From positions 1 through 40,900 of IMG/VR virus record IMGVR_UViG_3300021363_000010: 40,900 nucleotides of DNA. One strand, 5' to 3'. Each line of letters starts with the position of its first letter. The first letter of the stretch is position 1. Under the pieces are notes generated by a model. That model ran no database searches, was not told the origin of the DNA, and saw only the letters and a program-made list of their open reading frames with translations. A program made the translations under genes and the position numbers. The DNA is from a virus. This document shows positions 16,242 to 40,900 of this stretch, in pieces.

Positions 16242-16273
16242 GGCTCTTCCCTTCCCGGTTCAGATAACACAGA

Positions 16274-16327
16274 ACCGGCCTACCCCCCAAGTTGATTCAG
16301 CTTCAACGCAACGAGGGGTAGGCCGGT
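16274..16327 (-). terminator. Intergenic 13-bp inverted repeat between head genes
   Basis: Perfect 13-bp arms (16274-16286 and 16315-16327) enclose 28 bases containing a smaller 5-bp hairpin (16291-16295/16303-16307). It lies between the 123-residue head protein and the head-fibre gene. There is no U-run, so a partial terminator, an RNA-processing site or an mRNA-stabilising hairpin are all possible. Confidence 0.7.
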
Positions 16328-16330
16328 CGA

Positions 16331-18137: not shown

Positions 18138-18209
18138 GATCCTTACCTTTCGTCGACTGGGCAGGTGATCCGGGGGGCGTCACTGCCCCGGCCTGTCGTA
18201 CTTGGCCCC

Positions 18210-18249
18210 GCACCCTGTAGCGGACAGCTCCCTATGCACTACAGGGTGC
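18210..18249 (-). terminator. Hairpin after the major capsid gene
   Basis: Perfect 11-bp arms GCACCCTGTAG (18210-18220) and CTACAGGGTGC (18239-18249) with an 18-base loop lie just downstream of the capsid stop (18257). A post-capsid hairpin is common in phages, as a leaky terminator or a 3' stabiliser for the capsid message. There is no U-run. Confidence 0.75.
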
Positions 18250-18256
18250 TGGAGTT

Positions 18257-26035: not shown

Positions 26036-26200
26036 TCACCGTGACCGGGAGTAATCAGTGATGCCCGACCAAGTCTTTCGTGTTCCACCCCGGTTGATCC
26101 AGCAGACCAAGCACACACCTCGAACCTCCGGAGTCCACCGCGCTTCCCTCAGTCGGTGAGATTCCGTCCTGGAGTACATGCACACAACCTTGTCGCTCAT
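26036..26200 (-). CDS. Small hypothetical protein with CxxC
   Basis: The 54-residue product starts at ATG 26200 (MSDKVVCMYSRTESHRLREAR). A purine-rich AAGGA site lies upstream. The GVCLVCWINRGG segment might bind metal along with an earlier Cys. It is transcribed into the endonuclease VII-like gene, after the iteron region. Function unknown. Confidence 0.6.
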   Translation of the reverse strand: MSDKVVCMYSRTESHRLREARWTPEVRGVCLVCWINRGGTRKTWSGITDYSRSR

Positions 26201-26216
26201 GAGCTGTTCCTTCCTC

Positions 26217-26365
26217 GGGAACCATAGATTTTGTTGATCTTGCTTAACCGTATGGTTCCCCCTGGCCCCTGATCTTCGATACAGGGGCCACGGGAACCAT
26301 AGACGGTAGATGGTTCCCTGATTAGCCGGAACCATCGGGAACCATAGGAACCATAGGAACCATAG
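26217..26365. repeat. Iteron-like array, eight GGGAACCATAG copies
   Basis: Direct copies at 26217-26227, 26292-26302, 26328-26336, 26337-26347, 26347-26356 and 26356-26365 and inverted copies at 26251-26260 and 26310-26318 share GGAACCAT. The last three overlap in tandem with 9-10 base steps and code for the MVP repeats ending the primase/helicase. The rest is intergenic. Repeats beside replication genes suggest an origin or an operator. Neither is proven. Confidence 0.8.
26251..26301. other. Extended inverted repeat inside the iteron array
   Basis: TGGCCCCTG (26263-26271) pairs with CAGGGGCCA (26282-26290) across a 10-base loop. The flanking inverted iteron (26251-26260) pairs with the direct iteron (26292-26301) after a small bulge. 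This gives a stem of 19 bp in two blocks. Cruciform or terminator are the obvious options. Confidence 0.75.
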
Positions 26366-28688: not shown

Positions 28689-28852
28689 AGCGTGTACTCC
28701 GTGACGCCGTATCGGGAAGTGAAACGTTTTAGCGCCACGGAGCGTGTAGCATCTGACGATAAACCCTCACTGACAAGCCGACCTCGTCCAGTACCTTTCT
28801 GGAGGTAGATATCCCACTTAAACCAGCTGGCGCGTTCTATACGAAACATCAT
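28682..28852 (-). CDS. Small protein between polymerase and primase genes
   Basis: The 56-residue product starts at ATG 28852, which overlaps the polymerase stop as ATGA, and overlaps the primase start by 7 bases. The sequence (MMFRIERASWFKWDIYLQKG, then ATRSVALKRFTSRYGVTEYTLC) looks like a small beta/alpha fold. No family. A polymerase-primase accessory role is only suggested by coupling. Confidence 0.68.
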   Translation of the reverse strand: MMFRIERASWFKWDIYLQKGTGRGRLVSEGLSSDATRSVALKRFTSRYGVTEYTLC

Positions 28853-30717
28853 GCCTTGCTCCACGCCTTTCCAAGTGTCTTGATATCCGTACGGATGACG
28901 GGCGTACGACGGGACAGCTTGCGGAACCGTTCCGTGGGTCTCTCGGCCAGCCGTTGAATGTCGTGCGCCGCTTCGCTCTCCACCAACACCTCGTCATGCA
29001 TCCCGAACCTGACCGCCATCCCCAGACCGGCTCGACGCGCGTTGACCACCAGCGCGGAGAGCTCGTCATTCGCGCTGCCACTGACGCAGTAGTTGATCCA
29101 CTTGTGGGCTTGCACGGAGAACTTGCCCCTGTAGAAACCACTGGGAATAGGCACTATCCGCCCGGCCACGGTGTATGCCACCTTGTGATCCCGCGCGATC
29201 CGCTTGCCCGACTCCATGAAATCGGCCGTGGCCGGCATGGCGGAGAACACGGCCTGCTGAATGCCTTTCGCGGCTTCGTACCCCCAGCGTGCCTCGCGCG
29301 TAACCCCATTCGACCACACCTCCTCCGGGATCCAGGGCTCAGGGCTGAGACCGAGCTGAGCCGACATCGCGGCGAGTCCACGGCCGTACAGCCCGGCCAG
29401 GACGACGATCTTGGCCCAGTCGATGCTGATATCGGCATGGTCGGCGATGCCCTGGTAGATCTTGACGCCGAGCAACTCATAGGGCTCAAGGGGTTTCAGG
29501 TCGCCGGCGAGGTTCATCCCGATCCGGGGTTCCTGCTGCGAGTAGTCCACGGACGTGAACGAGGTGTCCGCCAGAATGATCCCCCGGGCCGGCCCGGGGA
29601 ACTGGTGCAGCGGTGGATCAGCCATTGCATCGCGCCCGTGCGCTGCTTTCAGGACGTCGGTCACGGGGTGGATGCGCCCGGAAGCGTCCGCCATGTCCAC
29701 GCATTTCTGTAGGTATCCGTCGAGCTTGGTCTTGAGCTGCAGTTCACCCCAGATCTTGGCGAGTGGATGGTGGAGCAGTTCCAGATCATCAGCTTTGGAG
29801 CTCCACTGCTGACCCTTGGGTGTGCGCGGGTAGTCAGCGGGGATGGCGCCGATTTGTTCCAGAAACCGCGTCAGCTGGTTGGCGTTGGTGATCCCCAGCC
29901 CGGCGAGGTAGGTCGTGGCTTGGTCCATGGATGCCTGGTTGGTCGTGCGGTAGGTGTCCAGGAAATCGAAGTCGACGAGCAATCCGTGGATGGTCTGTTC
30001 GATCGACCACCGGTTGTGCTCGTGCCGCTCGGCGATCATCTGCTCGGCTTCGGCCCGGCTCAGTCCGATGTCAGCACTGAACGGGTGGTTGAGCTGACGG
30101 TCCACCGCTGCCTGGTGGATAACCGGCCACAGACGAGCCGTACCGACCCCGTCAGCCGCGGCTCCGAACAGGTAGGCGGGGGCGTCAATATCCAGGTTCA
30201 GAAACCCGTCCCGCTTGGTCTTGTACCCGAGGCTCCGGAACAGGTCCATGATCGGTGCGTTCTTGATCCCCAGGTAACGCTCTACGCAGGAGTCCAGATC
30301 CTTGGCCGGCGTGATCCCCGGAGTGGCCAGCCGGGCCAGCAGCAGGGTGTCAATGATCTTGTCAACCAGTTGCGTCGGAAACAGGCCGTTGATCGCCAGG
30401 GACGGGGCATCAAAATTGGCCTTGTGCATCACCAGCGCGCTCGCGTAGTCCTGAGCTCGCAGGATCTCGGCCCGGTCGCCGGGTTCTCGGGGGTTGAGCA
30501 CCACCGCTGCCTCAGCGGTGGCCAGCGTGACGCACTTGATCCGGCCCGGCCCGGCGTCGGCGCCGACGCCGTACGTTTCGATGTCCTCGATCAGCGGGAC
30601 TGGTCCGTTACGGAAGATGTCCGCCAGCACCCTGGCAACGTGTTCTGTCCCCGCGGTCAGAGTGGCTCTGGCGAAACTAGGGAGAGGATACGTTCCGATA
30701 AGCGCGAATTGAGGCAT
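28849..30717 (-). CDS. DNA polymerase I-type (family A) with 3'-5' exonuclease domain
   Basis: The 622-residue phage replicase has a 3'-5' exonuclease N-terminus (LIEDIETYG with D45 and E47). Its polymerase motifs are A (SVDYSQQEPRIGMNLAGD, D391), B (AKIVVLAGLYGRG, K436 and Y444) and C (FGMHDEVLVE, H574-D575-E576). No 5'-3' exonuclease domain is present, as usual for phage enzymes. ATG 30717 is chosen because AAGGA is 9 bases upstream. The longer frame to 30774 lacks such a site. It is preceded by a 195-base leader full of inverted repeats and followed by the primase/helicase, so the phage likely replicates its own DNA. Confidence 0.93.
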   Translation of the reverse strand: MPQFALIGTYPLPSFARATLTAGTEHVARVLADIFRNGPVPLIEDIETYGVGADAGPGRIKCVTLATAEAAVVLNPREPGDRAEILRAQDYASALVMHKANFDAPSLAINGLFPTQLVDKIIDTLLLARLATPGITPAKDLDSCVERYLGIKNAPIMDLFRSLGYKTKRDGFLNLDIDAPAYLFGAAADGVGTARLWPVIHQAAVDRQLNHPFSADIGLSRAEAEQMIAERHEHNRWSIEQTIHGLLVDFDFLDTYRTTNQASMDQATTYLAGLGITNANQLTRFLEQIGAIPADYPRTPKGQQWSSKADDLELLHHPLAKIWGELQLKTKLDGYLQKCVDMADASGRIHPVTDVLKAAHGRDAMADPPLHQFPGPARGIILADTSFTSVDYSQQEPRIGMNLAGDLKPLEPYELLGVKIYQGIADHADISIDWAKIVVLAGLYGRGLAAMSAQLGLSPEPWIPEEVWSNGVTREARWGYEAAKGIQQAVFSAMPATADFMESGKRIARDHKVAYTVAGRIVPIPSGFYRGKFSVQAHKWINYCVSGSANDELSALVVNARRAGLGMAVRFGMHDEVLVESEAAHDIQRLAERPTERFRKLSRRTPVIRTDIKTLGKAWSKA

Positions 30718-30769
30718 GATCAGGTATCCTTCGATCGTCGGCCCGGGTGATGTCGTTGTCTCCACCGAT

Positions 30770-30819
30770 ACCACAGCCCCCGACCAGACGTGACGTGACC
30801 GTACGTCGGGGGCTGTGGT
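30770..30819. other. 15-bp inverted repeat in the polymerase leader
   Basis: ACCACAGCCCCCGAC (30770-30784) pairs perfectly with its complement at 30805-30819 around a 20-base loop holding GACGTGACGTGAC direct repeats. It lies about 50 bases upstream of the polymerase start. It may be an attenuator, a terminator for the upstream genes, or part of an origin. Confidence 0.8.
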
Positions 30820-30900
30820 TCACCTACGTGTTCCTCACCGCTTCCGAGCCGCGGAGCACTGGCACGTAGGTGACGCGGAGGATCTGCTCCGCGGCTCGGA
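30820..30900. other. Interleaved inverted repeats A-B-A'-B' (pseudoknot-capable)
   Basis: A (30820-30830, TCACCTACGTG) pairs with A' (30863-30873). B (30843-30858, TCCGAGCCGCGGAGCA) pairs with B' (30885-30900). Both stems, 11 and 16 bp, are perfect and cross each other: B lies inside the A loop and A' inside the B loop. Spacers are 12, 4 and 11 bases. They can form either one of two hairpins or an H-type pseudoknot. The element abuts the 15-bp repeat at 30770-30819. Confidence 0.8.
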
Positions 30901-30912
30901 TGCGGTCCGAGG

Positions 30913-31284
30913 TCATGTCGACACCACCAGCAGTGCGCTAGGCGCCGCCAGCAGGCCATCCCGCGACGGGTGCGGGTCGTGGACCAGCGCGCCGGTGGCG
31001 GCGTCGAGGACGACGGCATGCATCACGCCCCGGATCGACATCCCAAGCCCGATCACCTCGGGCTGGCCGAAGCGGACCGGGAAGCGAGGCGGGTCGACCC
31101 ATCGGACGCTGAGGCCGCGGGGGTAGAGCCACTCCCCGAGTGCCTTCAGCCAGTAGGTGGACTCGACGAAGTGCGGCACCTCGGCGCGATCCACGTCGAG
31201 CTGCGAGGCGACGCACGCGCGGAGGCAGTCGCCGAGCCGCCCGGACCCGTCACCCACGATGAACTCCTGATCTGCCGGGGTCAT
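30913..31284 (-). CDS. Papain-like fold protein, putative cysteine peptidase
   Basis: The 123-residue product shows GDCLRACVASQLDVDRAEVPHF with C20 and GVMHAVVLDAATGALVHDPHPSRDG with H89 and D103. That is the Cys-His-Asp order of papain-like and C39-type enzymes, and I recall similar small proteins in phages and actinobacteria. Target unknown. The start overlaps the upstream gene as ATGA. The C-terminus ends just before the interleaved repeats. Confidence 0.72.
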   Translation of the reverse strand: MTPADQEFIVGDGSGRLGDCLRACVASQLDVDRAEVPHFVESTYWLKALGEWLYPRGLSVRWVDPPRFPVRFGQPEVIGLGMSIRGVMHAVVLDAATGALVHDPHPSRDGLLAAPSALLVVST

Positions 31285-31449
31285 TCGGGGTCACCGCCGA
31301 GGGCCAGGCGGGCTGCGTTGATCCGGTCGCCGGGCGTGAGGTCGTAGCGGTTGAGCGCGTCCAGGGCAGCGGCCCTTCTCGCGGGCCAGGGTGGCCACCA
31401 TCTGGACCAGCCGCTCCCGGCTGACCATCAAGAGCGCTGGGTCGCTCAC
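31281..31449 (-). CDS. Small gene split between two frames (apparent +1 frameshift)
   Basis: GTG 31449 overlaps the upstream stop as GTGA and reads MSDPALLMVSRERLVQMVATLARE. The natural continuation (AALDALNRYDLTPGDRINAARLALGG) lies in the +1 frame and ends at TGA 31281, overlapping the next ATG. Ends in both frames are coupled but 169 bases is not a multiple of three. The shift falls near GAGAAGGGCC (31371-31380). One base is either extra in the sequence or skipped in translation. If restored, the protein has about 55 residues. Confidence 0.6.
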
Positions 31450-31637
31450 GTGCCCCTCACCGCCTCCAGCACCTCAGCGAACGGGGGCCCGTCCGGGTCG
31501 AGGGACTCAGCGAGGACGACCAGCCACGCGGCGTGCGCGCGGGCCTCGTCCGGGGTGAGGCGGCGGAAGGGGGCCAGCACTACGATCTCCTGATGTCCTC
31601 GAACGCCGACCATCTGCCGGTTCGCGATGTCGATCAT
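31446..31637 (-). CDS. Small hypothetical protein in the regulatory cluster
   Basis: The 63-residue product (MIDIANRQMVGVRGHQEIVV) starts at ATG 31637, which overlaps the upstream stop as ATGA. It has a beta segment, then a helix (LTPDEARAHAAWLVVLAESLDP) common to small actinophage proteins of unknown function. Translationally coupled at both ends. Confidence 0.7.
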   Translation of the reverse strand: MIDIANRQMVGVRGHQEIVVLAPFRRLTPDEARAHAAWLVVLAESLDPDGPPFAEVLEAVRGT

Positions 31638-32018: not shown

Positions 32019-32054
32019 GACCCTAGTGTGTCGCTACTTGACGTGTGTTGTCTA
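32019..32054 (-). promoter_or_regulatory. Leftward promoter for the HTH gene, leaderless
   Basis: Minus strand: TAGACA (32054-32049), 18-base spacer, CACACT (32030-32025), 6 bases, ATG 32018. The -10 is identical to that at 14467-14472. It overlaps the rightward promoter. Confidence 0.68.
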
Positions 32055-32067
32055 GTCGGGCTAAGGT
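32038..32067 (+). promoter_or_regulatory. Rightward promoter for the early operon
   Basis: TTGACG (32038-32043), 18-base spacer, TAAGGT (32062-32067). The predicted start is near 32074, about 129 bases before the first gene, and the leader is highly structured. It overlaps the leftward promoter, so one bound regulator could affect both. Confidence 0.72.
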
Positions 32068-32074
32068 TGAAATC

Positions 32075-32098
32075 TCACTACGGAACGACCCGTAGTGA
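32075..32098 (+). other. Hairpin at the 5' end of the early transcript
   Basis: TCACTACGG and CCGTAGTGA (32075-32083/32090-32098) form a 9-bp perfect stem with a 6-base loop (AACGAC), starting at the predicted transcription start. It could stabilise the 5' end of the RNA or act as an operator in DNA. Confidence 0.7.
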
Positions 32099-32107
32099 TC
32101 ACAGATT

Positions 32108-32179
32108 GGTGACCGACCGCGCATCGCAAGCCCTCCGCTGCTTGCCCTAGCGCGTGCAGGCCGTACGCGGTCGGTCACC
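32108..32179 (+). ncRNA. Structured leader element in front of the early operon
   Basis: A 14-bp perfect stem (32108-32121 with 32166-32179) encloses 44 bases containing a 6-bp hairpin (32126-32131/32140-32145) and other pairing options. It lies 23 bases before the first start codon, near the ribosome-binding site AAAGAGG. It may be a regulatory leader or cis-acting RNA. No known riboswitch class is recognised. Confidence 0.5.
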
Positions 32180-32202
32180 CTCCACCGAAAGAGGTACACC
32201 CG

Positions 32203-40688: not shown

Positions 40689-40900
40689 GGTTCTCCCTCT
40701 CTTTACGCCGGCCGGCTCTCTGGGCCAGCAGGAACACTCTCAGCAGATTCCACAACACGGCGGCCACGGCGAGCCTGCTGCCGACCCGTAACGCCTGCCC
40801 GCCGATCCCCATGAACAGGGCCGGCCAGACCAGCACCAGCACGCTCAGAAGGTAGGTCGCGTTCGTCACCCCGAGCAACCCCACCACAGCTCGGCCGGCT
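40678..40900 (-). CDS. Lysis-cassette membrane protein, C-terminal part (continues from position 1-255)
   Basis: This is the other end of the gene described at 1-255. It reads through 40756-40900 (the repeat) to TAG 40678. The last hydrophobic span and the basic tail are here. The apparent GTG start at 40887 is only an artefact of the window edge. The whole protein has 110 residues. Confidence 0.8.
   Translation of the reverse strand, partial: AGRAVVGLLGVTNATYLLSVLVLVWPALFMGIGGQALRVGSRLAVAAVLWNLLRVFLLAQRAGRRKERENHVP
40756..40900. repeat. Terminal direct repeat, right copy
   Basis: It matches 1-145 except for one base (40882 C versus 127 G). The unit length is 40,755 bp. Confidence 0.9.

Follow-up and report, generated by a model that had tools for sequence, protein, structure and literature searches.

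Crossed perfect inverted repeats and a probable small ORF upstream of the DNA polymerase gene of an uncultured bacteriophage

In phage T4, an operator hairpin lies about 40 bases upstream of the start codon of gene 43, and a pseudoknot 67 nt upstream of that of gene 32 (PMC3014915). In Cluster K mycobacteriophages, a 13-bp repeat, GGGATAGGAGCCC (SAS), is found at many start codons, and the extended start-associated sequences (ESAS), a recurrent imperfect 17-bp pair, form an inverted repeat upstream of the start codon (PMC3203893). Other hairpins terminate transcription without the canonical tail: the early region of phiC31 contains terminators lacking poly-U (Ingham 1995, as cited in PMC8355165), clustered hairpins terminate transcription in GC-rich bacteria (PMC8355165), and Streptomyces terminators have few Us and the longest, most stable hairpins (PMC12207403); to judge from the title of a cited work, there is published dissent over the need for a U-tract in mycobacteria. 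In leader-ORF (uORF) attenuation, a short ORF spans mutually exclusive stems, and the choice between them follows the position of the ribosome.

Here, we explored a site of crossed inverted repeats in a virus record of 40,900 bp, the whole of which is referred to as the window. It belongs to an uncultured bacteriophage related to actinobacterial phages, the host group being suggested by distant phage relatives only. The two ends of the record (1-145 and 40756-40900) share 145 bp, differing at about one position, and the genome is therefore probably circularly mapping or terminally redundant.

The locus recalls each of the described systems without coinciding with any. As at the T4 operators, a structured leader precedes a replication gene, but the polymerase is of another family, its ribosome site is not reached by the structure, and a pseudoknot is not favoured; the A+U-rich unstructured stretch over the ribosome site of gene 32 is absent here, where the sequence is GACAUCACCCGGGCCGACGAUCGAAGGAU, and a stable H-type pseudoknot of the gene 32 type is, by a rough estimate, not favoured upstream of the gene, its loop being too short for the full stem. 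Like the ESAS, the site places an inverted repeat upstream of a start codon, but its repeats are perfect and unique; the SAS is absent from the polymerase start region, which instead carries CGAAGGATACC, of which the window and a related contig (L001) each have a single exact copy. The U-less terminators of actinophages and actinobacteria are likewise GC-rich stable stem-loops between genes, soon after a stop, and neither of the two strong hairpins described below (B and C) is followed by a U-tract; the present site differs in that B lies inside a coding-like small ORF, interleaved with a second repeat, and in that termination here is putative. Clustered-hairpin intrinsic terminators (PMC8355165) share the arrangement of two adjoining strong hairpins past a stop codon, whereas here an open polymerase gene lies directly downstream and the hairpins are candidate terminators. 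Finally, the short ORF over mutually exclusive stems, chosen in our models by ribosome position, resembles leader-ORF attenuation, but no stalling codons were identified and the models show no output of the switch at C or at the ribosome site.

Crossed repeats at the polymerase junction

All genes near the site are on the minus strand, in the order excisionase-like gene, three small genes, a PHROG 5845 gene and a family A DNA polymerase. The PHROG 5845 gene (30913-31284; 123 aa, unknown function) was identified by profile match, and the polymerase (28849-30717, ATG at 30717) by matches to PF00476 and phrog_17; the ribosome-binding region of the latter, CGAAGGATACC (30723-30733, minus strand), is identical in the relative. 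Consecutive genes join through 4-base junctions, namely, ATGA at 31637, GTGA at 31449 and ATGA at 31284. One small gene of this operon (about 31285-31449, minus strand) seems to switch frame midway, its GTG frame ending at 31291 and the other frame running to the ATGA overlap at 31284, which could reflect a sequencing error or a frameshift. In the three nearest named phages, the polymerase gene overlaps the preceding gene, and there is no intergenic leader. Neither consensus promoters nor U-tract terminators were found at the crossed-repeat site.

The first-pass annotation described two interleaved perfect repeats of 11 and 16 bp with a third of 15 bp adjoining them, and all three are present, the first two in the order A-B-A'-B' on the plus strand. 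On the mRNA, which is read from the minus strand, the 5' arm of A, UCACCUACGUG (30863-30873), lies in the loop of hairpin B and is complementary at 11 of 11 positions to the 3' arm, CACGUAGGUGA (30820-30830), as found by a repeat search. Repeat B extends farther than first described: its perfect 16-bp core (30843-30858 and 30885-30900) is part of a 22-nt repeat at 95% that reaches 30906, with a 5' arm (30885-30906) starting 6 nt past the PHROG 5845 stop and a 3' arm at 30837-30858. The 16 perfect pairs are followed by one A.A mismatch and 5 more pairs, to which CCUC/GAGG adds 4. The adjoining repeat, C, consists of arms of 15 nt matching at 100% (5' arm 30805-30819, 3' arm 30770-30784, minus strand) around a loop of 20 nt, and is followed by AUCGGUGGAG, not a U-tract.

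The crossed repeats are real and far exceed chance expectation. When the 195-nt gap between the large ORFs was dinucleotide-shuffled 1000 times, no perfect stem was longer than 13 bp, against 16 observed, and in no crossed pair was the shorter stem longer than 9, against 11; the gap folds at -103.3 kcal/mol compared with -76.3 +/- 4.1 in the shuffles (z -6.6). Across about 330 kb of the window and related phage DNA, other crossed perfect stems of at least 9 bp have arms of just 9-10 bp. No exact A or B repeat pair was found elsewhere in viral contigs, although this search may omit records close to the window.

Two other repeat regions of the genome deserve description. The window's only other crossed repeat pair lies past the primase gene (26119-26360, minus strand), where several tandem copies of ATGGTTCC at the gene 3' end (MVPMVPMVPDGSG) are followed by inverted copies of GGGAACCAT and a long hairpin; the relative (L033 5232-5580, minus strand) keeps these repeats and their layout with a different inner stem. 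This region is a possible origin or structured RNA. The divergent intergenic region at 32019-32202 contains a 14-bp perfect inverted repeat (32108-32121/32166-32179), then AATCTGTGAT and a second hairpin, and its counterpart in the relative (L033 11850-12230, minus strand) has the same order with other stem sequences and a conserved TAGCCC..CTAGACAA..CGTCAAGTAG stretch.

A probable small ORF and hairpins near stop codons

The 195-base gap ahead of the polymerase holds as the distance between large ORFs, but not all of it is non-coding. The stop of the PHROG 5845 gene sits in an ATGA (30916) from which a frame of 30 codons, MTSDRIRAAEQILRVTYVPVLRGSEAVRNT, is open to a UAG at 30824-30826 (30824-30916, minus strand), which makes this the fourth 4-base stop/start overlap in succession. 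The codon log-odds of this ORF are +6.7 bits; 2.7% of 30-codon windows in a wrong frame but free of stops score as high, and among true coding windows the value lies near the 31st percentile. GC content by codon position is 63/50/90% compared with 62/50/78% in genes, a third-position value that the GC-rich repeats could partly inflate. No homologue was found in phages or in the relative. By its codon score and junction sequence, the small ORF is probably real, if not proven. It covers B and most of A: the first 7 nt of the A 3' arm end the ORF, including the UAG, and the last 4 nt (30820-30823) lie past the stop. Thus, most of the crossed repeats fall where translation is probable.

The repeats are not accounted for by coding alone. 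The RNA of the small ORF folds at -55.2 kcal/mol, compared with -31.4 +/- 4.5 for 3000 synonymous recodings that encode the same peptide with the codon usage of the phage (z -5.3), of which 1 was as low, and none of the recodings contained a stem longer than 13. A frameshift fusion of the small ORF to the polymerase was considered and rejected: the sequence shows a TGA in the polymerase frame within A', and no shift upstream of that codon can join the two.

Both hairpins stand close to stop codons. Stems of at least 11 bp starting no more than 10 nt from a stop occur at 4 of 54 gene ends, in a list picked by hand that includes the small ORF, added after the site was seen, compared with 0.2% of random intragenic positions. 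B and C, the latter 4 nt past the UAG of the small ORF, are two of these four, C being near a stop codon only if the small ORF is real. Neither has a U-tail, the sequence after B being GAGGAACACG and that after C as given above.

Elsewhere on the minus strand, strong hairpins at 16242-16330 and 18138-18256, the second following the capsid gene, start 3-4 nt past stop codons; they are of the same design as B and C and are terminator candidates. In the relative, a tRNA-Val gene is found just past the capsid gene (L034 18357-18443, minus strand); the window lacks one and has a strong hairpin in that gap.

The sole relative found, contig G001/L001, encodes a polymerase, helicase and primase 64%, 77% and 74% identical, respectively, to those of the window (tblastn). 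Searches with the polymerase (single and aligned) and with helicase and primase profiles in viral contigs, and with polymerase and primase in genome contigs, yielded no others, and ten records with capsid relatives, many of them fragments, contained no match to the polymerase or the upstream gene. Relatives of the upstream protein occur at 23 loci, all in other contexts; the 220 nt past the stop were read by eye at each. In the relative, a different gene precedes the polymerase gene, and neither A, B nor the small ORF is present. Nevertheless, a hairpin (z -2.7) lies at the position of C, 16 nt past the preceding stop and upstream of CGAAGGATACC. This hairpin and C are not alignable by sequence, so what is conserved is the kind and place of the element, and homology is not demonstrated.

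Predicted folds with and without a ribosome

The computed energies of hairpins B, A and C are -45.8, -17.7 and -33.0 kcal/mol, respectively, and free RNA is modelled as B plus C, without A. With a ribosome on codons 3-9 of the small ORF, A is complete (11/11) and B is lost; at later positions, B partly returns at codons 15, 18 and 30 and A at codon 24, with neither at codons 21 and 27. Hence, A forms mainly with a ribosome on the 5' part of the small ORF, and the initial proposal of two mutually exclusive hairpins agrees with the geometry, but the pair is unbalanced by the far greater stability of B. C remains whole at all modelled positions except the stop codon, where 10 of 15 pairs are left. 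The polymerase ribosome site is free of A, B and C and sits in a separate, weak local hairpin.

In these models, the choice between A and B neither changes C nor covers the polymerase ribosome site, which leaves a full attenuation circuit unsupported. A phage attenuator, in which ribosome position on the 30-codon ORF would select B or A and thereby set transcription or translation into the DNA polymerase gene, is unlikely.

Control junction, ordinary hairpins, operator or DNA site

We tentatively favour, at less than even confidence, an intercistronic junction that would act at the RNA level, with U-less tandem hairpins serving as a translation-modulated partial terminator or decay barrier that lowers polymerase expression. 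Under this scenario, the operon of small genes with overlapping stops and starts would end in the 30-codon ORF holding B and most of A. When the RNA is little translated, B (about 25 pairs, counting the outer extension) and C (15 pairs) would form strong tandem hairpins without U-tracts and act as a partial terminator or 3'-decay barrier between the operon and the polymerase gene, resulting in less polymerase. Translation of the small ORF would melt B, a ribosome on its 5' part permitting the alternative hairpin A, and a ribosome at its stop would disturb the foot of C, so that readthrough into the polymerase gene would rise with translation. We infer that the small ORF is translated, that the hairpins terminate transcription or protect against decay, and that the polymerase is affected.

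The same hairpins could be of the ordinary kind that forms at mRNA 3' ends or in processing, or tolerated fold-backs, with no role in polymerase regulation, the small ORF being a small protein gene or a chance occurrence. We consider this possible, if doubtful: other stop codons in the genome also precede hairpins, the relative lacks A, B and the small ORF, and the polymerase is served by a ribosome site of its own that does not differ between the two phages, but two perfect interleaved repeats within 90 nt are far outside both the shuffles and the synonymous recodings. A translational operator to which a phage replication protein binds, comparable to those in the autoregulation of T4 gene 43 (hairpin) and gene 32 (pseudoknot), would fit a structured leader of a replication gene; the end of C is about 53 nt from the polymerase ATG, on its upstream side. 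Such an operator is, however, quite improbable, given that none of A, B and C reaches the polymerase ribosome site, that the polymerase is of family A (PF00476) rather than the T4 type, that no AU-rich stretch follows the structure, and that neither stem nor loop sequence is kept in the relative.

The exact A-B-A'-B' order, with the 5' arm of A in the loop of B free to pair with A', speaks for an H-type pseudoknot combining the B and A stems. Loop 3 is 6 nt long, too short for a 22-row stem, which needs about 10; when the base of B is opened to make room, rough energy bookkeeping gives the sterically possible form about -56 kcal/mol before any penalty, no better than the -57.4 of the ordinary fold. 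The pseudoknot is absent from the relative, and the structured RNA families of Rfam 15 gave no match at gathering score, so we regard it as very unlikely to be the functional fold. Equally improbable is a DNA-level site, be it a replication origin, a resolution site or a regulator operator. Perfect inverted repeats can indeed bind dimers or extrude cruciforms, and an endonuclease VII-like gene is present, but the proteins scanned include no integrase, resolvase or other recombinase, which speaks against a resolution site. The earlier suggestion of an origin fares no better: the crossed repeats show no iterons, AT-rich DNA or skew change (gap GC 65% vs 63% overall), none of 3 DnaA-box patterns searched occurs in the gap, and an iteron-like array lies elsewhere, adjoining the primase gene.

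The crossed repeats do not demonstrate a new kind of element, and function is inferred only. Should the proposed mechanism hold, the junction would be a compact case of a phage replication gene whose control depends on translation. For now, the finding means mainly that a "non-coding leader" holds a small ORF with coding-like features and that the genome repeatedly places strong hairpins close to stop codons.
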